DNA of 64,000 nt from Apostichopus japonicus (Eukaryota > Echinodermata > Holothuroidea > Aspidochirotida > Stichopodidae), in assembly GCF_037975245.1 (NCBI RefSeq), contig NC_092562.1, positions 8,409,001-8,473,000 of the forward strand. Reading direction: 5' to 3'. A program made the translations under genes and the position numbers. The notes beneath the pieces were generated by a model that had not been told where the DNA came from, ran no database searches, and saw only the letters and a list, made by a program, of their open reading frames with translations. Positions 22,455 through 60,800 of the stretch are shown one piece after another. Each line of letters opens with the position of its first letter. The stretch's first letter is position 1.

Positions 22455-23008
22455 TCGAAACCAGCGCTATGTACAATTATATACATAGACCTATGTGTTA
22501 CCGATGAATTGATGTCAATCAAAATTGAGGATTAGTACTCTGCATGGGGTATAATTCATCGGTAACACATACGTATAATTATACATTGAGGATCAGTATT
22601 CTGGGGTGCAATTCATCGGTAACACATAGGATATATGTACAATTATACATTGAGCATCAGTATTCTGGGGTATAATTCACCGGTCATTACACATATGTAC
22701 AATTATACATTGAGCATAGTATTCTGGGGTGTATTTCATCGGTAACACATATGTACAATTAAACAATGAGGATCAGTATTCTGGGGTGTGATTCATCGGT
22801 AACACGTATGTACAATTATACATTAAGGATCAGTATTCTAGGGTGTAATTCATCGGTAACACATATGTACAATTATACATTGAGGATCAGTATTCTAGGG
22901 TGTAATGCATCGATAACATATATGTACAATTATACAATGAGGATCAGTATTCTGGGGTATCGGTAACACATATGTACAATTATACATTGAGGATCAGTTT
23001 TTTTGGGG
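22455..23008. repeat. Minisatellite, ~56-60 bp unit, about 9 copies, with an inverted first unit
   Basis: The unit reads acaattatacattgaggatc, agtattctggggtgtaattc, atcggtaacacatatgt. The left edge contains part of the unit in reverse (tatgtgttaccgatgaatt at 22492-22510) facing the direct copy at 22553-22571, so the array starts with a 19-bp stem. The frame at 22766-22966 is a translation of the repeat. Confidence 0.9.
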
Positions 23009-23599
23009 TGAATGTGTGCATCTTTACTATATTGTTCTGACTGGCTCGTGTTTATCGAAGTATATAACCTTGGTTCGTTCTCCATACAACGCTACGTAGT
23101 CAATGTTCACCAAGTCGCTTTGTAGGTCAAGACTAATCGTTCCATTGATATGGAGTTCAAAGTTAAGGGAAGGGGAAAGGCGGGGAGGGTGCAAAAAGCC
23201 GAAAGTCAGTATAGTTGCGAGCATTACGTTGCACTCAGGAAATGGTCAATATTGGTGCGTACCTCACTTTCTATCCCATATTTCTTATGCCAGACCGCTA
23301 TTTCTTGTCCACACGTTCATCTGTTCCGAGAAATTCTGAATTAAAGGTTATCAACGAGAGTTATTGAAAATAATCTCATAAACAACTCTAAGCTCTTCAT
23401 AAATGATGAAAGAGAATTGCGCTTTCGGGTATTGTATCCTACAGATTTGATACGCTATACAATAAACTTACGAAGGCTGATGCGATTTGCAGCAAAACAA
23501 CTGTTGTGTTAAAATGCTGACATCCTTGGAAATAAATATATCCGTACATACTGTAGGCTATTTCCGAAAGACCTAGGATCGTCCGAGTAAATACCACAC

Positions 23600-26871: not shown

Positions 26872-26919
26872 TAACTTACACACTGCAAACAGTACATCAA
26901 CACAACAGACAGCCACACA

Positions 26920-27665
26920 CAACTGTACACAAAAGAACCATCATCATCGTTATCATCAGTGCAGTAGGGTTCTCAATGTACACAACTGCACACAGAAGAA
27001 CCATCATCATCATCATCAGGTGCAGTAGGGTTCTCAATGTACACAACTGCACACAGAAGAACCATCATCATCATTATCATCAGTGCAGTAGGGTTCTCAA
27101 TGTACACAACTGCACACAGAAGAACCATCATCATCAATATCATCAGTGCAGTAGGGTTCTCAATGTGCACAACTGCACACAGAAGAACCATCATCATTAT
27201 CATCAGTGCAGTAGGGTTCTCAATGTTCACAACTGCACACAGAAGAACCATCATCATCATTATCATCAGTGCAGTAGGGTTCTCAATGTACACAACTGCA
27301 CACAGAAGAACCATCATCATCATCAGGTGCAGTAGGGGTCTCAATGTACACAACTGCACACAGAAGAACCATCATCATCAAGATCATCAGTGCAGTAGGG
27401 TTCTCAATGTACACAACTGCACACAGAAGAACCATCATCATCAAGATCATCAGGTGCAGTAGGGTTCTCAATGTACACAACTGCACACAGAAGAACCATC
27501 ATCATCATCAGGTGCAGTAGGGGTCTCAATGTACACAACTGCACACAGAAGAACCATCATCATCATTATCATCAGTGCAGTAGGGGTCTCAATGTACACA
27601 ACTGCACACAGAAGAACCATCATCACAATCATAATCATCATCATCAGTGCAGAAGGGGTCCCAAT
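26920..27665. repeat. Minisatellite, ~57-66 bp unit, about 12 copies
   Basis: The unit reads gtgcagtagggttctcaatg, tacacaactgcacacagaag, aaccatcatcatcat plus a variable (CAT/TAT)n end. Length changes come mainly from the CAT trinucleotide part. Open frames on both strands (Met-Tyr-Thr-Thr and Met-Gln-Leu-Cys repeats) are translations of the repeat. It lies just 3' of the possible last exon of the + strand gene and 3' of EEF1D. Confidence 0.95.
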
Positions 27666-28372: not shown

Positions 28373-28411
28373 TTATACTTTGTTGAAAGCTACCACATCC
28401 ACACTTTGTAC
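28373..28411 (-). CDS. EEF1D: EEF1D coding exon 11 (last)
   Basis: Acceptor ttctcttttcag, phase 0. Encodes [12 protein letters not shown] and TAA (28375-28373), the conserved end of the exchange domain. Confidence 0.95.
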   Translation of the reverse strand, partial: VQSVDVVAFNKV

Positions 28412-31400
28412 CTGAAAAGAGAAGAAAGAAGTGCTTAATCAACTGGGGGAGAGTTTTGGTCAAGTTTTGGCCGTGCAAACAAGGAAGCTGAAATAATTGC
28501 TTGTGTAAGGGTTTTTGGTATCTTTTTGGTATCTTTTGGTATGATGACACCCTGAGATGAGGAACAAGGTCAACAGTTGCCATAGTAACTGCTGCTTCTC
28601 TTGTGGAGTGGAGTCATATATGCTTAACAAATGGTATAAACTCAGTGTGGATAATTACGCTAATAGGAATAATTCGAACAGTCATAGGTATACTAACAAA
28701 AATCAATTTCTTTGTTTTCATCATATAACAATTTTATTCATATTTTTGACATTGTACATTGATAACATCTTTGGTCTTCAAAAGAGAATCTGTCTAGTGT
28801 AGACTTTGCAAAATGTGGTAGAACGAACAACCTAGGTGTCACACACATACATATTTAATGAACATCCTAGGTGTCACACACTAACATAATAAATGAACAA
28901 CCTAGGTGTCACACACAAACATAATTAAAGAACAACCTATGTGTCACACACTTAATGAACAACCTGGGTGTCACATACATACATAATGAATGAACAACCT
29001 GGGTGTCACACACTTAATGAACAACCTGGGTGTCACATACATACATAATTAATGAACAACCTGGGTGTCACACACTAACATAATAAATGAACAACCTGGG
29101 TGTCACACACATACATAATTAATGAACAACCTAGGTGTCACACACATACGTATTTAAAGAACATCCTAGGTGTCACACACATACATAATAAATTAACAAC
29201 CTAGGTGTCACACACTAACATAATAAATGAACAACCTGGGTGTCACACACATACATAATTAATGAACAACCTGGGTGTCACATACATACATAATTAATGA
29301 ACAACCTGGGTGTCACACACTAACATAATAAATGAACAACCTGGGTGTCACACACATACATAATTAATGAACAACCTGGGTGTCACACACATACATAATA
29401 AATGAACAACCTGGGTGTCACACATACACTTTTAATGAACAACCTGGGTGTCACACACTAACATAATAAATGAACAACCTGGGTGTCACACACATACATA
29501 ATTAATGAACAACCTGGGTGTCACACACAAACATAATTAATGAACAACCTGGGTGTCACACAAAAACATAATAAATGGACAACCTAGGTGTCACACACAT
29601 ACATTTTTAGTGAACAATCTGGGTGTCACACACACACACACTAACATAATTAATTAACAACCTGGGTGTCACACACATACACTTTTAATGAACAACCTAG
29701 GTGTCACACACATATATAATTAATGAACAACCTGGGTGTCACACACATACATAATTAATTAACAACCTGGGTGTCACACACAAACATAATTAATGAACAA
29801 CCTGGGTGTCACACACATACATTATTAGTGAACAACCTGGGTGTCACACACATACATCATTAATGAACAACCTAGGTGTCACACAATTACATTATTAATG
29901 AACAACCTAGGTGTCACCCAATTACATTATTAATGAACAACCTGGGTGTCACACACAAACATAATTAATGAGCAACCTAGGTGTCACACAATTACATTAT
30001 TAATGAACAACCTAGGTGTCACACACACATACATTATTAACGAACCACCTAGGTGTCACATCCAAATATACTATGCAAAACTGGCACATTGCTACACAAG
30101 TGCAAAGTTGTGAAGCAGATTTTGTACAAAGGAACCATTGCATTTTATAAGAGAAAGTCTATCTGCCTTCAATATTGCAACACAAAATTTGAATTCTACA
30201 TCATTCCCTGTGCTGCATTAAACATTTGGAGGAAATAGTCCATAATTAGACAGATAGTGATATACATGAATGAACAAAATTATCATGAGATAACTGCTGC
30301 CGACTGGAGGGACTGTCTCTGGGACAGGTTATCATTGACCAGGGGTAATACAACGTCTGTAAAGCGCTTTGAGACCTATTGCTATAAAGCGCTATATAAA
30401 AAACAAATATTAATATTATTAAATATTATTTGTTGGCCTCTTCCAATTGTTGTTATTGGCATGCAGGTTTTAAAGGTAATATTTAGGGGATCTAAAAAGT
30501 GGGAAATGTTTTCTACAAACTTTCCATTTAGGGCTTCAAAAAGCAAACAAGTGGGAAATGAAAAGCAACAGTGTCCCCCCTCCCCCACTAAAAGTTCCCC
30601 CTCCCCCTCCCCACTTAAAAATGTCCCCTCCCACTTGAATTGTCACCCTCCCCACTTAAAGTGTCCCCTCCCCCACTTAAAGTGTCCCCCTCACACACTA
30701 AAAGTGTCCCCTCACCCACTTAAAGTCTCCCCTCCTACCTCAAAGTGTCCCCTCCCCCATAAAGTGCCCCTTCCCCCCTCAAATTGTCCTCCTCCCTCCT
30801 CAAATTGTCCATCCTCACTAAAAGTGTCCCCCCTCAAAATGTCCATCCCCCACTAAAAGTGTCCCCCTCCCCCCACTAAAAGTGTCCCCCTCCCCCACTA
30901 AAAGTGTCCCCCTCCCCCACTAAAAGTGTCCCCTCCCCCACTTAAAGTGTCCCCTCCTCCACTTTAAGTGTCCCCTTACCCACTTAAAGTGTCCCCTCCC
31001 ACACTTAAAGTGTCCCCTCCACCACTTAAAGCTGTGCAGCTAATTTGCATATCTGCTATTGAATGTGCTTTTGATAGTCAAATAAGTTACAATGGGTATC
31101 CAGCATGGTTTGCTTGCCATCTGTCTGTGATTAAACCTCAGATTCATCTCGAGTCTTGTGAGACATCTAGCAAAAAACAAACAATCACGACAAAGACAAT
31201 TTCAAGAAATTACAAATACTTACAAGGTCATCAAACTCCAAAATTTGTTCTTCTAAATCATCGACAAATACTTTGTCGTCTTCAACAACACATGTTATCT
31301 GTAGTTTCTTGATGCCATAGGCTACGTCTACAAATTGAGCTGAAGGCAAGAACATAGATTATAACGTTGCTGAACTACAGAGCTGTGACACGAAAAAAAA

Positions 31401-34400
31401 CATACTGAATCTACTGGCACAATACCGTAAACACCTAACTACAATTTAGGATTATTAGGATGTATTAATTAAAAACAATTCATACTTTTAATTTAGGACA
31501 TGTTATATAAATGAAAAAAGTTCATAATTTTTGGTAGGTATCGACATTTGACCCTGATCTTTGTTGCACTAATAAACTCACAATAGTAGAATTCAACCAA
31601 TTTGCAATACATATATGAAGGCTTTAACTTATCTACTTTTAAATCAGTTCATAGACACATTGGTTCCAGACTACCTTTGAATCCAGGCTCTTTCTCATAC
31701 GAACTTTAACACATGTAACAATTCACATAATAACTTCACTGTATACTCTTCAGTGATGGCACACTAAAATAAACTAAAGATATAAGATATTCTTTAACAC
31801 AGTTCTGATGATAACATTTTAGCTACCTGTCTATTTGATACTCACATTTACCCCATACAAGACCATCAGCAGGTCTGATGATTTCTCTCTATTTGATACT
31901 CACATTTACCCCATACAAGACCATCAGCAGGTCTGATGATTTCTCTCTATTTGATACTCACATTGACCCCATACAAGACCATCAGCAGTACTGATGATGA
32001 TATTTCTCTCTATTTGATACTCACATTTACCCCATACAAGACCATCAGCAGGTCTGATGATGATATTTCTCTCTATTTGATACTCACATTGACCCCATAC
32101 AAGACCATCAGCAGGTCTGATGATGATATTTCTCTCTATTTGATACTCACATTTACCCCATACAAGACCATCAGCAGTTCTGATGATGATATTTCTCTCT
32201 ATTTGATACTCACATTTACCCCATACAAGACCATCAGCAGGTCTGATGATATCTCTCTATTTGATACTCACATTTACCCCATACAAGACCATCAGCAGGT
32301 TTGATGATGATATTTCTCTCTATTTGATACTCACATTTACCCCATACAAGACCATCAGCAGGTCTGATGATGATATTTCTCTCTATTTGATACTCACATT
32401 TACCCCATACAAGACCATCAGCAGGTTTGATGATGATATTTCTCTCTATTTGATACTCACATTTACCCCATACAAGACCATCAGCAGGTCTGATGATGAT
32501 ATTTCTCTCTATTTGATACTCACATTTACCCCATACAAGACCATCAGCAGTTCTGATGATGATACTACTCTATTTGATACTCACATTGACCCCATACAAG
32601 ACCATCAGCAGGTCTGATGATGATATTTCTCTCTATTTGATACTCACATTTACCCCATACAAGACCATCAGCAGGTCTGATGATGATATTTCTCTCTATT
32701 TGATACTCACATTTACCCCATACAAGACCATCAGCAGGTCTGATGATGATATTTCTCTCTATTTGATACTCACATTTACCCCATACAAGACCATCAGCAG
32801 GTCTGATGATGATATTTCTCTCTATTTGATACTCACATTTACCCCATACAAGACCATCAGCAGGTCTGATGATGATATTTCTCTCTATTTGATACTCACA
32901 TTTACCCCATACAAGACCATCAGCAGGTCTGATGATGATATTTCTCTCTATTTGATACTCACATTTACCCCATACAAGACCATCAGCAGGTCTGATGATG
33001 ATATTTCTCTCTATTTGATACTCACATTTACCCCATACAAGACCATCAGCAGGTCTGATGATGATATTTCTCTCTATTTGATACTCACATTTACCCCATA
33101 CAAGACCATCAGCAGTTCTGATGATGATACTACTCTATTTGATACTCACATTTACCCCATACAAGACCATCAGCAGGTCTGATGATGATATTTCTCTCTA
33201 TTTGATACTCACATTTACCCCATACAAGACCATCAGCAGTACTGATGATGATATTTCTCTCTATTTGATACTCACATTTACCCCATACAAGACCATCAGC
33301 AGTTCTGATGATGATACTACTCTATTTGATACTCACATTTACCCCATACAAGACCATCAGCAGGTCTGATGATGATATTTCTCTCTATTTGATACTCACA
33401 TTTACCCCATACAAGACCATCAGCAGGTCTGATGATGATATTTCTCTCTATTTGATACTCACATTTACCCTATACAAGACCATCAGCAGTACTGATGATG
33501 ATATTTCTATTTGATACTCACGTTTACCCCATACAAGACCATCAGCAGGTCTGATGATTTCTCTCTATTTGATACTCACATTTACGCCATACAAGACCAT
33601 CAGCAGGTCTGATGATATCTCTCTATTTGATACTCACATTTACCCCATACAAGACCATCAGCAGTTCTGATGATGATACTACTCTATTTGATACTCACAT
33701 TTACCCCATACAAGACCATCAGCAGGTCTGATGATTTCTCTCTATTTGATACTCACATTTACCCCATACAAGACCATCAGCAGTTCTGATGATGATACTA
33801 CTCTATTTGATACTCACATTTACCCCATACAAGACCATCAGCAGTTCTGATGATGATATTTCTCTCTATTTGATACTCACATTTACCCCATACAAGACCA
33901 TCAGCAGGTCTGATGATGATATTTCTCTCTATTTGATACTCACATTTACCCCATACAAGACCATCAGCAGGTCTGATGATGATATTTCTCTCTATTTGAT
34001 ACTCACATTTACCCCATACAAGACCATCAGCAGGTCTGATGATGATATTTCTCTCTATTTGATACTCACATTTACGCCATACAAGACCATCAGCAGTTCT
34101 GATGATGATACTACTCTATTTGATACTCACATTTACCCCATACAAGACCATCAGCAGGTCTGATGATGATATTTCTCTCTATTTGATACTCACATGTACG
34201 CCATACAAGACCATCAGCAGTTCTGATGATGATACTACTCTATTTGATACTCACATTTACCCCATACAAGACCATCAGCAGGTCTGATGATATCTCTCTA
34301 TTTGATACTCACATTTACCCCATACAAGACCATCAGCAGGTCTGATGATGATACTACTCTATTTGATACTCACATTTACCCCATACAAGACCATCAGCAG

Positions 34401-37400
34401 TTCTGATGATGATATTTCTCTCTATTTGATACTCACATTTACCCCATACAAGACCATCAGCAGGTCTGATGATGATATTTCTCTCTATTTGATACTCACA
34501 TTTACCCCATACAAGACCATCAGCAGGTCTGATGATGATATTTCTCTCTATTTGATACTCACATTTACCCCATACAAGACCATCAGCAGGTCTGATGATG
34601 ATATTTCTCTCTATTTGATACTCACATTTACCCCATACAAGACCATCAGCAGGTCTGATGATGATATTTCTCTCTATTTGATACTCACATTTACCCCATA
34701 CAAGACCATCAGCAGGTCTGATGATGATATTTCTCTCTATTTGATACTCACATTTACCCCATACAAGACCATCAGTAGTGATAGTCATGACCTTCTCTCT
34801 TAAAGACTCCATATCTAGTAAATAAATATGAAATGTAACGCATGGAAAGAGTTATAATATCAAACTCCAGACTAACTGAAAACAGCCAGTATGAGAGACA
34901 TTCATTGGATTCAGTACACACATTTAACATATTAACATTCATACAACACACATATTAACATAATAGGACACAGCTCTTGAACAATCAATCTTCACCAAGA
35001 ACAATGGTTCTGCTATTAAAGCTAGTGTTTTCAGATTCAATCCTATAAACTCACATGATTATTGACTTCCATCAAGGATCATGTGCTTGAAACTGTTGTC
35101 AAGAAGACTTTCAAGATATGCATGGTTTGCTAGTCTTTTAAAGTTGTACCAGTTGACCTTATATGACCTTTGAACTTGACTTGAAGGAGGGAAGTATTGA
35201 AAACTATAGACTTCTATTTTCTCAATCATTTTGTCAATATTTTACATACTATGACTGAAAGTTTAAAAGTTTTGTTGTCATTTCTTTTAAAAATAGGTTT
35301 TCACTTTTGTACATTGCAATTAGCAATTTTCTGACTTTTAAATGAACCTTATTTCATGGATAACTTGAGCAAAACTGTGATCAAATAGAACAAAATGAAT
35401 TTTATTTCTTTTATTGTTCAATAACTGATATCTTTATTTCTTATTAATAGCAAGCAAAATAAATTCCTATAAATGATATGGTTCTTGCAATTGCTACCAT
35501 GAAAGGGGACTCTACGTACCACGAGTACCTATGCCCTCTGCTCACCTCATATGTCCTTTGACATTCACCGAGGGCACAGGGACCTTGTACTAACAAGGGA
35601 CATTGTACTAACAAGGGACCTTGTACTTACAAGGGACATTGTACAACAAGGGACCTTGTACTAACAAGGGACATTGTACTAACAAGGGACCTTGTACTAA
35701 CAAGGGACATTGTACTAACAAGGGACCTTGTACTAACAAGGGACATTGTACTAACAAGGGACCTTGTACTAACAAGGGACCTTGTACTAACAAGGGATAT
35801 TGTACTAACAAGGGACCTTGTACTAACAAGGGACATTGTACTAACAAGGGACCTTGTACTAACAAGGGACATTGTACTAACAAGGGCCCTTGTACTAACA
35901 AGGGCCCTTGTACTAACAAGGGACATTGTACTAACATGGGACATGGTACTAACAATGGACCTTGTACTAACAAGGGACCAAGTGTCAAGTTCAAGTCAGA
36001 TTTACCTCTTGAGTTTACAAAGGAATGGCCTATTCAGACACACACACCTGTCATCATGATTGCATATATTCTTTTAGCACTTTGCAACAAAAGAAAATAC
36101 AGGAATATGTCAAATACAGGAATATGTGACATACAGGGAATATGTGACATACAGGGAATATGTGACATACAGGGATATGTAAAATGCACCGAAGGATCCT
36201 GCACCAACTGTACTTTTACAAATCTCTACTGCAAAACAGGCAACATTTTTAACTTCTCATGAGTGTTAATTTCACAGTAAACTACATGAACAAAACATAG
36301 ATGCTCTTGCTGCATATGCTGACACTCTACAATGTAGCTATTCCTTATTAACTGCATGGTGACAACTACAACCTTGCCCATATAATCTGTACAGTAGGCT
36401 ACAGAACTGATGAAGAATTCAATATTCTAGGAGATCATACACTTCCAGGCTCGTACAATGTCACAAAACAGATTGCAAATCAATTTTAAAACTTAGAAAT
36501 AGGGTATATTTACCTGTGTCATCTCCAAGCTAGAAATAAAGAGAAAGAATTCTTTAAATTTAACAATTTAAAATGGTATAAATGATTATGCTTGATTGAC
36601 AAGATCACATGCTGCAGTTCACCCAATAGTGCATCAAAAAACATCTTAGTTACATGACAACTTTAGTCAAATATTACCTTCATATCTACATGCTGTAGTC
36701 CACCCAACAGTGCACAAATATTACCTTCATTTCTACATGCTGTAGTACACCCAACAGTGCATTAAAAAACATCTTAGTCACATGACAACTTTAGTCAAAT
36801 ATTATCTTCATTTCTACATGCTGTAGTCCACCCAACAGTGCATTAAAAACATCTTAGTTACATGACAACTTTAGTCAAATATTACCTTCATTTCTACATG
36901 CTGTAGTACACCCAACAGTGCATTAAAAAACATCTTAGTTACATGACAACTTTAGTCAAATATTACCTTCATATCTACATGCTGTAGTCCACCCAACAGT
37001 GCACAAATATTACCTTCATTTCTACATGCTGTAGTACACCCAACAGTGCACAAATATTACCTTCATTTCTACATGCTGTAGTACACCCAACAGTGCATTA
37101 AAAAACATCTTAGTTACATGACAACTTAAGTCAAATATTACCTTCATTTCTACATGCTGTAGTCCACCCAACAGTGCATTAAAAACATCTTAGTTACATG
37201 ACAACTTTAGTCAAATATTACCTTCATTTCTACATGCTGTAGTACACCCAACAGTACATTAAAAAACATCTTAGTTACATGACAACTTTAGTCAAATATC
37301 ACCTTCATTTCTACATGCTGTAGTACACCCAACAGTACATTAAAAAACATCTTAGTTACATGACAACTTTAGTCAATCATCACCTTCATTTCTACATGCT

Positions 37401-40400
37401 GTAGTACACCCAACAGTGCATTAAAAAACATCTTAGTTACATGACAACTTTAGTCAAATATCACCTTCATTTCTTCAGCTCTTAAACATTACACAGATTG
37501 CCAGGATCATAAGGAAGGGGGAGTAAGTAAACAGTTATAAAGGGCAAATTTAAACGTAATGTAAGAAACTGGAAGGTACTTGATATCTCACGTATTCTAT
37601 TTGTGCAAGAACAGGCCATGCAACACCTGGTACTAAAACAGCTCACATTTAACAACCAAAGCCTGATTTCAGGATTTAGGCATTAATACTGATTGATCTG
37701 ACGAAACTATAAATTTTAGTCTTGTCTTAAGATTGGCAATTTTACTTAACTTCTAGATATTTTCTCAGAATGCTAGTTATGGGTGAGTAAGAAACAGAAG
37801 TTGATTCACATCTCAATACTTCATCACCAGACACTCATGAATGAAAACTTGAAGATTTCATATGAAACTAATAAACTTGAGTTTCATCAAAACATCATCA
37901 ACTCAAATTTATGCCGCTTTAAACTTAAACATATAAAGCCACCTTTCCAAGGGCCTTAATGTCATGGTAACACTCTCATGAAAGGAAATATTTATGAGGA
38001 TGATCAAATCTGTGAATAACTTTGTGATTTCACATGTAATGTTAGAAAATATCCAAGACAGAAGTAATGCTTTAAAAAATTAAATTAATTGTTTTTTTGC
38101 ATACTTACCGGTTTAACGTCAAGTATAATATTGGATTTGGCTATCACTACTTTTTCTGAAAGAAAATTAAAATGTGGAAAATTGTGAAGAGAATTTTTTA
38201 TCCTATGTAGAATTAAATAGAGATATAAATGAGACAAAGGGACCATATGGCCAATCATTCCTGCAAAATCCACAGACTGGACTTGACTAATCCCTACCTA
38301 TCGTTCGTGCAAAATTCACAGATTATCTCATATACATAACAGACTGGACTTGACTAATACCACCTATCGTTCCTGCTTGTTAAAATCCACAGATTATCTC
38401 ATATACATAACAGACTGGACTTGACTAATTCCACCTATCGTTCCTGCTTGTTAAAATCCACAGATTATCTCATATACATAACAGACTGGACTTGACTAAT
38501 ACCACCTATCGTTCCTGCTTGTTAAAATCCACAGATTATCTCATATACATAACAGACTGGACTTGACTAATTCCACCTATCGTTCCTGCTTGTTAAAATC
38601 CACAGATTATCTCATATACATAACAGTGACTTGACTAATTCCACCTATCGTTCCTGCTTGTTAAAATCCACAGATTATCTCATATACATAACAGACTGGA
38701 CTTGACTAATTCCACCTATCGTTCCTGCTTGTTAAAATCCACAGATTATCTCATATACATAACAGACTGGACTTGACTAATTCCACCTATCGTTCCTGCT
38801 TGTTAAAATCCACAGATTATCTCATATACATAACAGACTGGACTTGACTAATTCCACCTATCGTTCCTGCTTGTTAAAATCCACAGATTATCTCATATAC
38901 ATAACAGACTGGACTTGATTAATTCCAACAATCGTTCCTTCTTGTTAAAATCCACAGATTATCTCATATACATAACAGACTGGACTTGACTAATTCCACC
39001 TATAGTTCCTGCTTGTTAAAATCCACAGATTATCTCATATAGATAACAGACTGAACTTGACTAATTCCTACCAATCATTCCAAGCTTGTGAAAATGAAAA
39101 ATGTAATGAAAATGAAAATGAAGTGAAAAAGACAGTTGATACGCATACAACATATGAAGTCAAACCACCACCATATATATATATATGTATACTTTAAGTT
39201 AGCTGTTTACACACCAAGGCATCACACCATAAAAGCACAAACTATCAACATTGCTTACATATTTCTTGTAGCAAGGAATGAAATGTTGCAAAATATTTTC
39301 TGCTTCTTACTCTTTTTTTTGGCAGCCTCTGCCTCTTTCATTTGCTTTTTCAAATCCTCAGCTTTTCTCTTTGTCTGAAAGAGAGATGAACAGATGTAAG
39401 TTACTATAACAGGATGTACAAGATGTCTCTTCCAATGCATAATATATCATGCAAGTACCATTGGATCAGGACGTTGTGCATAAACCATTTTACTGACGCA
39501 CAGCCAATCATTTTATTACCAGTCTTATTATCTGTTTTGAACAAGTGTAAAAGCAGTTTTCCTCACTTTCCTTATATTTTAATTGAACACTAATCAATGT
39601 CCATGAAAACAATTGATACATAAAAGTTCCTAAGAACACTGAGCAACTATAAGTACACTGCAATTGTAGCCTAGTAACTGCGTAGTCACTTTGCACCAGA
39701 CCCACACAGTAAACATGCTTAACAAAAGTTTGTTGAGTAGGACTTTTGGTTATAATACAATGAAACATGGCCAACCAGTTTTATTTCAGATGTAGTAATG
39801 TTTACAATGTATAATGTGTCATGCCATATGTTTACATCTCAAGGAGGAAGATCTCCTCTCAATGGGATAACAGTTATTAAACTTTGTTGAGATGTAAGAG
39901 AGACTGAGAGAGAAGCCTCTGATAAACACTCACATCTTCGTTGTTTCCAAACAGGTCTTCGTCATCATCACTGTCGCTATCTTCGTCAACTTCATCTTCA
40001 CCCTTCAAAGAAAACAAGGAAAAAACATTTTAAACATTTACAGGGATGAGACTGAGCCGGGGGAAAAAAATCTGAAATTTATTGATCACCGTCCTGGGGG
40101 AGGGGTTTAAGGGGAGGGGGTGTCCCCCTCCCCTTTAGAATTTTTTTGTCAGGTAAGGAGGGCTTAAATGCAAAATGGTGGACTCTAGATGGAATCTATC
40201 ACATCACGTAACTCGCCAAAAAATTGTGGAATTTCTGCTTGTATAATTTATCCATTAGCTTTTTTGAACCAAAAAAAGGCTTTTTTGCTTGCTTTGTGCT
40301 ACTTGATTCCACCACCGGTCAAATTCGGTGTTCCTTCCCTTCGCAGTCCAGCATGTTCGGCAAAAAACAAAAAACAAAACAAAACAAAACAAAATTAAAT

Positions 40401-54851: not shown

Positions 54852-57800
54852 GTAAGTTTTATCTGCTTACAATTATTTTACCAAGTTTGCTTAAATACCA
54901 AGACAAAGCTTTAACATCACTAAGTTTGTACCGTTAGAATAACGCGCGTAGGCCACTGTAACTTTAGGAATAGCCTACTGACACTGTAGCATAGTAACGA
55001 CCGGTATAGTCGAAGAACATGGCTATCGTTACACTTTAAAATTAAATATAGCATGGTACCTATTATTATGACGCACTTTTGGAAAAATTCTTAATTTTAC
55101 CATAGCAACTGAGAGTAAACTCACATTGAACTGTGCTAGATTTGATTTTCAGTAACGTTAAGTCAAACAATCATGTAATTTCGCACATGGTTCTTGGTAT
55201 CAGGAATGTCAAGTATAGTCAGTAGTGCGAAGTTCGGCATATTGCGAAGATCGGACACCCCTAAGAAACACACGATTTCACCATGAAAAACTACAGGAAG
55301 AGCCAAATTTCACCAAAAAGTACGAAGCTACAGTTATTTTCTCTCCAAAATGACCCGTGTGCAAGAAATTACTTACATATTTGTCAACAAAATGACGAAG
55401 ATCTATGAAGTCTGTTATAATTACTGAAAGAGCAACTGCGCCACCAATTTTATCACCAGCGCCACACTGTGGGTTGCGCGTCCGAACTTCGCAATACTCT
55501 AGCAAAGAAATACCAGTTCCACAATCACGAAGAATCTTCTTGGAAAACAACGTGAAAACAGTTTGCAGGAAAGAAAGTTTGGCCGTGTATCGTACTATAA
55601 CACAATTCTCCCACCATATGAAGTATATTTTCTGGTTAATTATACCAGAAGATTTAGTTTTGGGGTGTTTTAAGTCTTAAGTGTCCGAACTTCGAAGTCA
55701 CCATGCTACTCAGAAATACTTGGTAGTCATGTTACCCTCCTTTCCTTGAGTCAAGCAAATTAAGATGATGTATCAGCAATATTTGTAACAAGTGGGCCTG
55801 AGCCTCCAAGACATGAAAATTATCTCCAGGTTCTATGCTGATAAATTATGAAACAACTTCTGAGTCAGTTCTACACAACTTCACTACACAAACACAAAGA
55901 AATGTACCATAAATCACTTATATTTAATCCTCCAATTTGTGCTCGCTATCTTGCTTCTGTAGAAAAGAAATATGAGTCTCGCTTTGCTATACCTGGAAAG
56001 GTAATCTCCCTGAATTAAGTTATGCCGTACATCAGTGCTTGGCAGTAAACAGCACTCCAGAGATTTATGGTGCAAGTGGCAACTTAACAAATAGTTTAGG
56101 GTGACATCTACAGTACAGTAGGTTCATATCCAGTCCATCAAGTAAATACGGTACTACAGGATGGCTGACATTAAGACACTCCCTGATCCTTAATTACCAT
56201 GGATTCCTTTCCAGTTAAATGTCAGTCAGTTGGTAACAAAATTATTGTACAACTAGATGTCATTTAGTTGAGTTGACTTAAATATACATGTATCTTCTTG
56301 AAAACAACAATCAAATGGAACACAAAATGTCAATAGTTCGGGTGGAAGTTCCCAACTCGCTAAGATCCCCACCGGTGGCCAAAAATATAGCAATATTGCA
56401 GTCTTATCATAATGTAATGTCTAATGATGGACACATCTTCCAGGGTGCTTTGACAAGATTACAACAGATTAAGCAAGAGAGATCCTGTTCTCTTGAGGAC
56501 TAGAATTAACTTCTTAGACTAAGTTAAAAAATATTACCAAGAACTGTCAACTATCAACAAGAACTGGGTGACAACAACTTTTGGTCACACGACTTCACCC
56601 GTCCAATTGGTTAATTCTGGCAAAATGCAGTACTTTCTCAACTGATACAATGACCAATCAGTAATTACTTATGGATTAGTCCTCATTAATATTCATGTCA
56701 CAACTTTGCCTTCACTTCCCCAGCTCTGAGATAATGGATTAGTTTGGTTCCCCTTTCCCACAATATGTTCTTTTAAATACTACAAAGCTAGAGAGAACCA
56801 CAAGCTTCATTGGTGCTTTTACACTTGATTCGGATCAGATCTCCTGATGTTATCAGACGATCATCTCTCCTTGGGGTAAACTTATAATGCATGATCAGGA
56901 TGCATTTACACTTGAGTCGTACTCTGATCCTCCACTATTCACTGGATGTTGGTTAAAAAAATGGATTGGAAATATGTCATGCATGCGCAGATCTCAGTAC
57001 GTATACTCCAAAACTTTAGTTGTCATGGTAGCATAGCCTTAGGATGACAATACTACACTAGATGCACGGCCCACACACACTCAATCTAAGTAGAAATTAG
57101 CATGTTGCTGTGGCATTTATGATTCTTATATTGTACCATGAGAGGATGATCAGGATGCAAGCTTTTTACGAAGAAAATCAAATTGTTTGTGAAGTGGACA
57201 CCAGAGCGACAAGGCATAAATGAGGCCTGAGCAACAAGGCATAAATGAGGCCAGCCTGCGTCTGACATGTCTAGGAACTGAAATAACAAATAGTGAATAT
57301 CTGGCAATATTTATATCATTATTTATGTCATAAATGTCTTCCAAAGATCCAAGAGGTGATCAATATCCATAATTCCAAACATTTCCCCATTGCTTGAAGA
57401 TTGGTTCATGCAAAACATAGCTCTCCTAATTGAATACAAAGTTAAAGTAACCCGCAAGAAAAATAGTGTCACATTGAAAGTGCAAACATCTAGACAAATT
57501 ACAAGTTTCGGTCATAGTTATTCAAAGCATCAAATATATACCAAGTAAAGTAAAAAAATGTTCCAGCACTGTCATCAATTTCAGTTGATGCCTATCAAGA
57601 TTTATAAGCAAGAGTTGCCTGCATCTTTTAGCTTGTCTGAGCCCTCTTGTAATGTCGAGGTAAGCAAGAGTTGCCTGCATTCTTTAGCTTGTCTGAGCCC
57701 TCTTGTAAGGTGAAAGTAAGCAAGAGTTGCCTTTGTTTCTTAGCTTGTGTAAGCCCTCTTGTAAGGAGAAGATCACAAGAGTTGCCTCTGTTTCTTAACT

Positions 57801-60800
57801 TGTCTGAGCCCTCTTGTAAAGTGGTTCCTGCACCTGCTGTCACCACTATCTTTTTCCTGGATATAGTGACTTCCTTCAATCTTCTATAATATATTTTATT
57901 CTGATAAATATAACATTTGAATAGCATATATGACAGTTCCTTCAGCTCACCACACTTCCATCCCAATTGGCCATTTCAAACCTACAGTCTGGAATACTGT
58001 ACCCACTTTTGAAGTAACCTCTCTGTCCAGTTAAAGGCAATCTTCTGCATCATCTGTTTTTTGGCCTACAATTGGGCAGTTAATCTCATGCTTATTAATT
58101 TGTGTTGCATGTTGGCTGTGTGACGCCTCTGTTGGTCTCCAACTTTACATTATTTTTAAGATTGCCACACTTCTTTATATTCCACTGATCTGGAATAACA
58201 AGTATTTTGCAGTACAAATGCTTTTTGATCATCCAGGGCTTTTCAAATATGTTCTCCAAAGTACTTGAGATAGTATCCTCTTCACTACTGTATCTCCTTT
58301 TAAATGAATAAATGGACTGAGGGATGGACAGATAGATAAGTTTTCATGACAACTTGATAACAATAATATTGTCAAGTATCAAACTTAGACTATGTGAATG
58401 TTTGATTATACTGTATCCACTATAAGTTACCAGGAAATGGTTTGACCAAAAACAAATTCTTAATTTTAATTTTTCCTCCCTTTGATATTCTGTTTTTTTT
58501 TTTTTTAATGGTGCAATTGAAAGATCATTTGTTTTCATAATTTTTTACTTCACAGTTACCATTATCATTACTTAGGACAGCTCAGAATCATCCTATGGTA
58601 AGTATTATTTTATTTTGTTTTTAAATTGTCAATGCTCAGATATATACTGTAGTTTACAGTACCTGGCTCCTTAGTTGTATGTTAGTCTGTCATGTGGTTG
58701 CTCTACTATCATAATTATAAGGTTAGTAACTATGTATACATCAATGATGCAATTATGAACAGCTCTACCTACTGTACACTTCATAGCCTGTTGAGAAGTT
58801 TTGCATATTGCATAGACTGATAATTAATCATAAAAACACTTGAAATTAACTAAAAATGCTTTTACCAGAGATGAAAAAGAAACAAGAAACCGGAAAGTCA
58901 GGAGACACTTTAGATTGAGTCAATTATTTGGGTTGCTGTTTGGAACTTCCAAGCATCTTTTATAGGACAGTTAATTTGTGATAAAGTGGATCATGCTAAT
59001 TGCTCAAAATTCTGGAATTGTATAAAAAATTATCAATTAACACAATCACAAGATGCTGAATGTTCTCAATCTTGAAGCTGCGAAAGTTCATATGTGGAAG
59101 TTTGACTTAGATCATTAATATTGCTTTCTACTTACTCAAATGACCTCAGATTTCAAAAAGTGCACATTAAGTTTATCTGGTTGTTTAATTATGAGGACGC
59201 AACTTACTGTAGCTTACCATTGACCTACTGTAGCATTTATTACTAATATTGACATTTTAGAAATATTGTAGATGAAATATTTTGGTGCATGCAAGGAAAC
59301 TACTGTAATGTTAAGTCTGACATGCTTGGTGTTTGTAATTATTATTGTACAGTTTACCTGCCATATAAATCCTGTACATCAAATGATTCATTTTTTAACC
59401 ATGATTTGATTGAAGAACTATGGTTACAGAAGCTTCCAATACTCTGGGTCTTATCTCTGGAACAAGTTACCAGATCACATTCGAACATGCTATAAACTTT
59501 CTACTTTCAAAAGTCTACTTAAGACCCATTTTTTCACTTGTTCTTTTGTAAATTAATTTACTTTCTCTGTAAAGCGCTTTGAGCAGTAACTTTTGTTTAC
59601 TGATTTGGCACTATATAAGTCTCATTTATTATTATTATTATTTAACACTAATGTTTTGGCATTAATTTTAATTTCCAGTCATTTCTTAAAAGCATTTCAT
59701 AGATATTGGTACTGACTAAGCATTTGTTAATCTAGGGAGAACAATCATCTACAATTGATGAACTGTGAGTTACAGTACAATGTGTTCTCTATGAACAATT
59801 TCACAAGGATGTGTGTGTGCAATTCATTTCTTCCTGTTTGCTTATTAGCTTGTAGAGTTGAAGAATGGTGAAACATACAATGGTCACCTGGTTGCCTGTG
59901 ACAACTGGATGAACATCAACCTCAGGGAAGTCATTTGCACATCAAGGGTAAGTTTAAATTATATTTGCTTTTAGTCATCAGATAACTGCCAAGGCAAGGA
60001 CAACCATAGGTCCTCAGGTTAGCAGAGCTCTCCAAGGCCTGAAGAGTATACAAAACTTTGATATCTTGGCCTAATCTTTTAGGTCAAGGAATATATACTG
60101 ACACTTTGCCATTCTTTTGTGTTTTTGACACCTCACTGAATGCAAAATGAATCTATATGCTGCCGATTGTATGTGTGGGTGTGTGTTTATGTATGCAGTG
60201 CACCTTTTTGTACACACAAACTATTAAGTACCACTTGATTGAAGCTCACATTTGGTAAGTATATCTACCTTGGCGAGAACAAAATTTCTAATGAAATTGG
60301 TGAAGGTCGAAGGTTAACAGAGGTCAAACTCTGAAAACCTTGAAATCAAGATACTGTAACTAAAACAAACTGCAGCTTGTTTCAACTTCATATGTGTGAG
60401 GTAGAGCTTGCCTTGGTACAGTAAGTGCAAGAAATTAGTTGAAATTGGTGGAGATCAAAGGTCATTTGAGGTCAACATCCATAGTTTAAAGTCCAAAAAC
60501 ATTGTAAGCAATATAAGCAAATAAATAAAGCATGGATGAATTTCATGTTGCATAGGTAGGTAGGGCCACATTTATTTAAGAATTTTAATCACTTGAAGTC
60601 AATATTGGTAAAAATTAAAATGTCTTTAAAAATTTTGTTTTGGCATTTTAAAGTTCACATGACAATGTGGCTAGGAATCACTCAGTCAATTGGTTTTCCG
60701 CTTTATGCACTGTAATTTACATTTGGGGAAGGTGGTTATTTTTTAAAACCAAAAAGGGGATCTCCAAGACAAATTGTACTCATGTGCTTGGTGGTATCCT

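Follow-up and report, generated by a model that had tools for sequence, protein, structure and literature searches.

The human gene IFI6 (6-16, G1P3) reportedly contains a minisatellite with multiple splice donor sites, described by Turri in 1995. Its repeat unit is 12 bp long and the copies add whole codons, the frame remaining open. According to the cited part of a report on this gene, two downstream repeat units serve as donors, resulting in three mRNAs (PMC4526556). In amphioxus, the term “mirages” was introduced for tandem repeats that straddle an exon-intron boundary, and the cited passages of a globin study describe them in Adh3, with units of 10-72 bp, and in two globin genes, with units of 150-160 bp (PMC3087553). 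The mirage of BflGb6 lies on the acceptor side and comprises 6 and 3 units in two haplotypes, whereas that of BflGb9 is located at the 3' boundary of an exon. Length and somatic instability are reported there, and both the Adh3 data and RT-PCR on the globin genes reportedly suggest that regular splicing is not disturbed (PMC3087553). The mirages of Adh and troponin C are said to give no aberrant mRNAs in the portion used here of another study, which also presents PGBD5 repeats of 60 and 108 bp, with 2 or 7 and 3 or 6 copies, respectively, depending on the assembly (PMC3902484). An amphioxus exon whose beginning equals one unit of a satellite-like intron repeat is mentioned in the cited part of a further paper, on opsins (PMC5802833).

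Human segmental duplications contain internal tandem repeats that lie at exon-intron boundaries, alter gene structure and can form new introns; in the cited sections of that work, these repeats consist on average of 30-bp units in four copies, and two thirds of the intron modifications are associated with an alternative transcript (PMC2812944). A long repeat that lies within an intron and spans no junction, TERT VNTR6-1 (38 bp, up to 66.5 repeats), appears in the part of the literature used here as an object of study for its effect on splicing. A literature search, which covered few subscription papers, retrieved no paper on EEF1D together with a minisatellite.

The window analyzed here, a stretch of 64,000 nucleotides of the Apostichopus japonicus genome taken as a whole, holds on its minus strand a tandem minisatellite-like repeat whose unit spans an exon-intron boundary of EEF1D and copies its splice signal, two of the traits of mirages (Table 1). 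TRF delimits one array of period 63, with 47.6 copies, 94% matches and a score of 5206, in which exactly 48 in-register GTGAGT succeed one another from 34751 down to 31845. The 47 donor-to-donor intervals measure 63 nt (31), 61 nt (8), 58 nt (7) and 59 nt (1), the last three lengths accounting for 16 of the 47 units, and 15 distinct unit sequences are present, the commonest of them 22 times. As 16 GTGAGT occur in the 53.5 kb of minus strand lying outside the 14 arrays of TRF score of at least 200, an array of 48 donors is far beyond chance.

Each unit is made of the last 24 nt of the EEF1D exon and of the start of that exon's own intron. Read from the donor onward, it begins with GTGAGTATCAAATAG, goes on with a variable intronic spacer and finishes with the exon end. 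This exon end (CTGATGGTCTTGTATGGGGTAAAT) occurs 48 times at up to two mismatches, 40 of these occurrences being exact, and no further occurrence was found elsewhere in the window on either strand at up to six mismatches. Past the last donor, the single-copy intron carries on the spacer sequence as far as ATCATCAGAACTG, so that the unit is one stretch running across a splice junction, and not an exon joined to foreign DNA.

Table 1. Positions in the window of the EEF1D features and of the repeat array
Feature	Positions	Strand	Remarks
Minisatellite with 48 donors: 47 units of 58-63 nt, then a partial unit	31830..34775	-	Unit: exon end and donor, followed by some 31-39 nt of intron
Native 5' splice site GTGAGT (donor 1)	34746..34751	-	
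Exon-proximal stretch of six 63-nt units	34374..34751	-	Donors 1-7 (the seventh at 34373) keep the EEF1D frame open
Array end and single-copy intron flank	31799..31845	-	Continues the intronic part of the repeat (GTGAGTATCAAATAGA...ATCATCAGAACTG), with a gap of at least 7 nt
EEF1D exon ending DGLVWGK, 63 nt, with the native exon end	34752..34814	-	Homology to the eEF1 delta/beta exchange domain
Next EEF1D exon, whose acceptor would be common to all donors	31224..31339	-	
EEF1D microexon of 16 nt (LGDDT), joining the preceding exon in frame to 34814-34752	36514..36529	-	
Last EEF1D coding exon, with the stop	28373..28411	-	

The EEF1D model comprises 10 coding exons on the minus strand (48490 to 28373), 738 nt including the stop with an open frame of 246 codons, and nine GT-AG introns. 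Queried without the microexon, the protein matches the Pfam family EF1_GNE (EF1 guanine nucleotide exchange domain) with an E-value of 8.6e-25, above the cut-off, and PDB 2n51 (elongation factor 1-delta) with an E-value of 6.7e-32; two further Pfam families remained below their cut-offs. Judged from this predicted exchange domain, the gene is EEF1D (eEF1 delta). The exon with the native end is the eighth of the ten coding exons, or the ninth, as numbered earlier, if a possible 20-nt exon at 41522-41503, left out of the model, is counted. The initial annotation had recognized about 48 tandem donors in minus-strand units of 58-63 bp, a description that the GTGAGT count and the TRF array confirm. 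It had also taken the right-most copy for the genuine exon end, which agrees with an exon at 34814-34752, its donor at 34751 and a next exon starting from 31339. The gene, exon end, donor, frame and acceptor that it named all proved correct.

The microexon reads LGDDT where 2n51 has WDDET. A canonical WDDET exon was searched by a pattern of its residues, which gave 4 matches against 4.9 expected, and the 16-nt microexon with other residues was retained instead; with it, the EEF1D gene reads intact. LGDDT and the C-terminal VVAFNKV, which stands against IAAFNKI in 2n51, are changes at conserved places.

Like the amphioxus mirages, as they are presented in the cited passages, the EEF1D array is a minisatellite-like tandem duplication over an exon-intron boundary with splice signals in its copies, and the unit sizes overlap, with 58-63 nt here compared to 10-72 bp in Adh3 and to 60 and 108 bp in PGBD5. 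It copies the 3' boundary of an exon as in BflGb9 and differs in this respect from BflGb6, where the acceptor side is concerned. It is a further repeat of the junction type, and its 48 donors place its copy number above that of the mirage cases for which counts given in the cited passages were compared (2-7 copies in the globin and PGBD5 genes, the counts of Adh3 and troponin C lying outside this comparison). The likeness to amphioxus mirages is one of kind, and not evidently one of taxon.

The human boundary repeats of segmental duplications, in the sections cited, share with the array a minisatellite expansion at an exon-intron boundary, with, on average, four units of 30 bp against 47 units of 58-63 nt. 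IFI6, as far as the cited part of its description goes, shares with it a minisatellite that repeats the splice donor and whose downstream units could be alternative donors. However, its unit measures 12 bp against 58-63 nt here, and the repeat donors of IFI6 are reported as used in mRNA, whereas the use of distal donors in EEF1D is putative and most copies would break the frame: the open frame that characterizes the IFI6 copies is found for donors 1-7 of EEF1D and is lost for 41 of the 48.

We consider it probable that the array is a splice-junction minisatellite that has grown by tandem duplication and is tolerated since the native donor is mostly used. The initial tandem duplication would have covered about 60-70 nt, the last 24 nt of the exon and about the first 46 nt of the intron, and slippage or unequal exchange would then have raised the number of copies to 47-48. 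The added copies would sit in the intron without information maintained by selection, and their donors would be spliced out together with it, the native donor being mostly used, probably because the first of several donors is preferred under exon definition when the exon is short. The amphioxus mirages, which duplicate splice sites with no aberrant mRNAs reported for Adh and troponin C, speak for this reading, and IFI6, in which repeat donors do enter mRNAs, speaks against it.

The similarity between the two breakpoints does not exceed chance (1558 of 2000 shuffles reach its score), which gives no indication of microhomology and leaves the first duplication without a visible cause. Duplication of the whole exon was also considered, exon and unit both being 63 nt long, and the intronic part indeed resembles the 5' part of the exon weakly: the score is reached by 118 and 78 of 3000 mononucleotide shuffles (2.6-3.9%) and by 271 of 9138 36-mers sampled along the same strand, array included. 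This origin was not adopted because the same intronic part continues clearly into the single-copy intron. No excess stability was detected in the structure of the units, either as RNA (z = 0.11 for three units) or as DNA (z = -0.41, -0.69 and 0.08), and the 6-bp hairpin CATCAG/CTGATG that forms in the unit is ordinary. For non-coding RNA, neither an Rfam match at gathering score nor a tRNA was found in the window.

Joined to the acceptor at 31339, donors 1-7 (donors 2-7 being located at 34688, 34625, 34562, 34499, 34436 and 34373) preserve an open frame as far as the native C-terminus, with 0, 21, 42, 63, 84, 105 or 126 additional residues, whereas donors 8-48, that is 41 of the 48, all lead to the same premature stop, located in unit 7. 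The “seven consecutive open copies” of the initial annotation hold as far as seven donors are open, but six of these are added units and the remaining one is native. Its proposal that distal donors insert 21-residue repeats likewise stands on paper for the six added units and fails for the 41 donors that lead to a premature stop. An open 63-nt unit in the exon frame is not remarkable, as it is expected in 28% of shuffles of the spacer with the length fixed, and in 9% when a length that is a multiple of 3 counts as a chance event too. If donors 2-7 were used occasionally, EEF1D would be lengthened by 21-126 residues between GLVWGK and SQFVDVAYG, and use of donors 8-48 would end in the premature stop and probably in mRNA decay. 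With 41 of the 48 donors destroying the frame of an intact gene, free use of the distal donors would be hard to sustain.

The predicted pairing with U1, calculated with what we take to be the sequence of its 5' end, is -7.5 kcal/mol for 46 of the 48 array donors and slightly stronger for the two others. This value is mid-range among the seven other EEF1D donors (-5.7, -5.7, -7.4, -7.5, -8.5, -10.5 and -11.9 kcal/mol, the microexon donor not being included). As all 48 donors share GTGAGT and nearly identical flanks, local sequence cannot account for a preference for the first one. Equal use would yield 41 of 48 transcript kinds with a premature stop in an otherwise intact translation-factor gene, which makes it implausible, and we infer from this that the first donor owes its preference to position or to exon context.

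The initial annotation had also put forward, as possible effects of the array, competition for U1 snRNP or its retention, slower splicing and length isoforms of EEF1D. It seems unlikely that the array works as a generator of length isoforms as in human IFI6, with donors 2-7 used appreciably and the exchange domain of EEF1D lengthened by one to six blocks of 21 residues. Donors 1-7 are in frame and open, the six exon-proximal units all measure 63 nt, and IFI6 transcripts take two downstream repeat units as donors according to the cited part of PMC4526556; however, a random ordering of the units would place six of 63 nt next to the exon with a probability of 0.07, so that no selection is needed, and in the alignment with 2n51 the insert would fall in a part of the exchange domain that is conserved. 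Quite improbable, in our estimation, is a length-variable cassette of equal 5' splice sites, in which the number of open units, differing between individuals, would determine from 0 to at least 6 extra 21-residue blocks in the exchange domain, the downstream donors would set the loss of mRNA through premature stops, and the array length would tune the amount of the translation factor.

Nineteen of the 63 unit columns are variable, with none among the six of GTGAGT; columns 1-13 are invariant, as is a block of 18 columns in the exon-derived part. The initial annotation had ascribed donor conservation either to selection or to recent homogenisation, and the comparison of GTGAGT with the other unit positions does not support selection. 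The motif is invariant in 48 of 48 copies, but a given block of six columns is free of variation with P = 0.10, and the donor columns do not vary significantly less than the other 57 (Fisher P = 0.17) or than the exon-derived ones (0/6 against 5/27 variable, P = 0.56). The longest invariant run, the 18 exon-derived columns, would arise with P = 0.01 under a random placement of variable columns, and the intronic columns 7-36 vary more than the exon-derived columns 37-63 (14/30 against 5/27, P = 0.03); no conclusion is drawn from either value, since columns altered by one indel are not independent. All five substitution types of the exon-derived columns are nonsynonymous or nonsense, which indicates that the copies are not maintained for a coding role. 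Adjacent identical units form 14 pairs, against 10.7 expected in shuffles (P = 0.08), and the longest run of identical units is 7 (P = 0.07), homogenisation of the array being thus weakly visible. Altogether, the pattern of variation is compatible with a recent amplification and gives no sign of selection on either the donor or the code.

The same columns bear on the possibility that the array is a landing site for U1 snRNP, its 48 sites recruiting the particle against premature polyadenylation or tuning the speed of splicing, with donors kept by selection. We regard it as very improbable. It is consistent with the 48 intact GTGAGT, with the invariance of columns 1-13 and with a predicted U1 pairing comparable to the values of genuine donors, but the invariance of six columns reaches P = 0.10 and is shared by the 18-column block located away from the donor. 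The scarcity of polyadenylation-like signals in the 3412-nt intron (no AATAAA and one ATTAAA) can be read in its favour, but such an intron, almost devoid of these signals, would leave little to hold back. Among the other eight EEF1D introns, AATAAA or ATTAAA occurs at least three times in four, once in two and not at all in two.

An array wrongly expanded or arranged by the assembly deserves very little credence: the BflGb6 mirage appeared misassembled in a genome draft, as stated in the cited passages of PMC3087553, but the 15 distinct unit types are interspersed here and real splice-site repeats are documented, although the copy number, taken from one assembled haplotype, may still be wrong. 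That the array is a seed of intron gain, its copies becoming new exons or introns on the model proposed for the globin mirages in the cited part of PMC3087553, is extremely improbable, every unit having a donor but a simple pattern scan of the array's sense strand finding nothing that resembles an acceptor, so that its units would not easily be exons now.

Other arrays are present in the window. Those of TRF score of at least 200 cover 33% of the EEF1D span (28373-48498) compared to 16% of the window, and one of the 18 EEF1D splice sites lies inside such an array. Repeated GTRAGT was found in none of the 13 other arrays, one of which has one GTAAGT, located on the minus strand. Downstream of EEF1D, an array of 63-bp period (26917-27632) repeats a motif resembling a 3' splice site (e.g. 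TTCTTCTGTGTGCAG) on the minus strand, with 12 pattern matches. In the EEF1D intron preceding the microexon, most units of the array at 36607-37474 read CTACAG...GAAATGAAG|GTAATATTTG or a close variant, and resemble a pseudo-exon with acceptor and donor. On the plus strand, an array of 57-bp period (22545-23010) displays a 67-codon open stretch with a 19-residue repeat and may be coding, and another of 56-bp period (57605-57823), whose consensus unit contains GTAAGGTGAAGG, has 5 GTRAG and is possibly donor-bearing.

The EEF1D array shows how far a minisatellite can grow across the splice junction of a conserved gene. With 48 near-identical donors facing one acceptor in a translation-factor gene, its native transcripts could show how position decides 5' splice-site choice, providing a natural test of this choice without engineered competition constructs.
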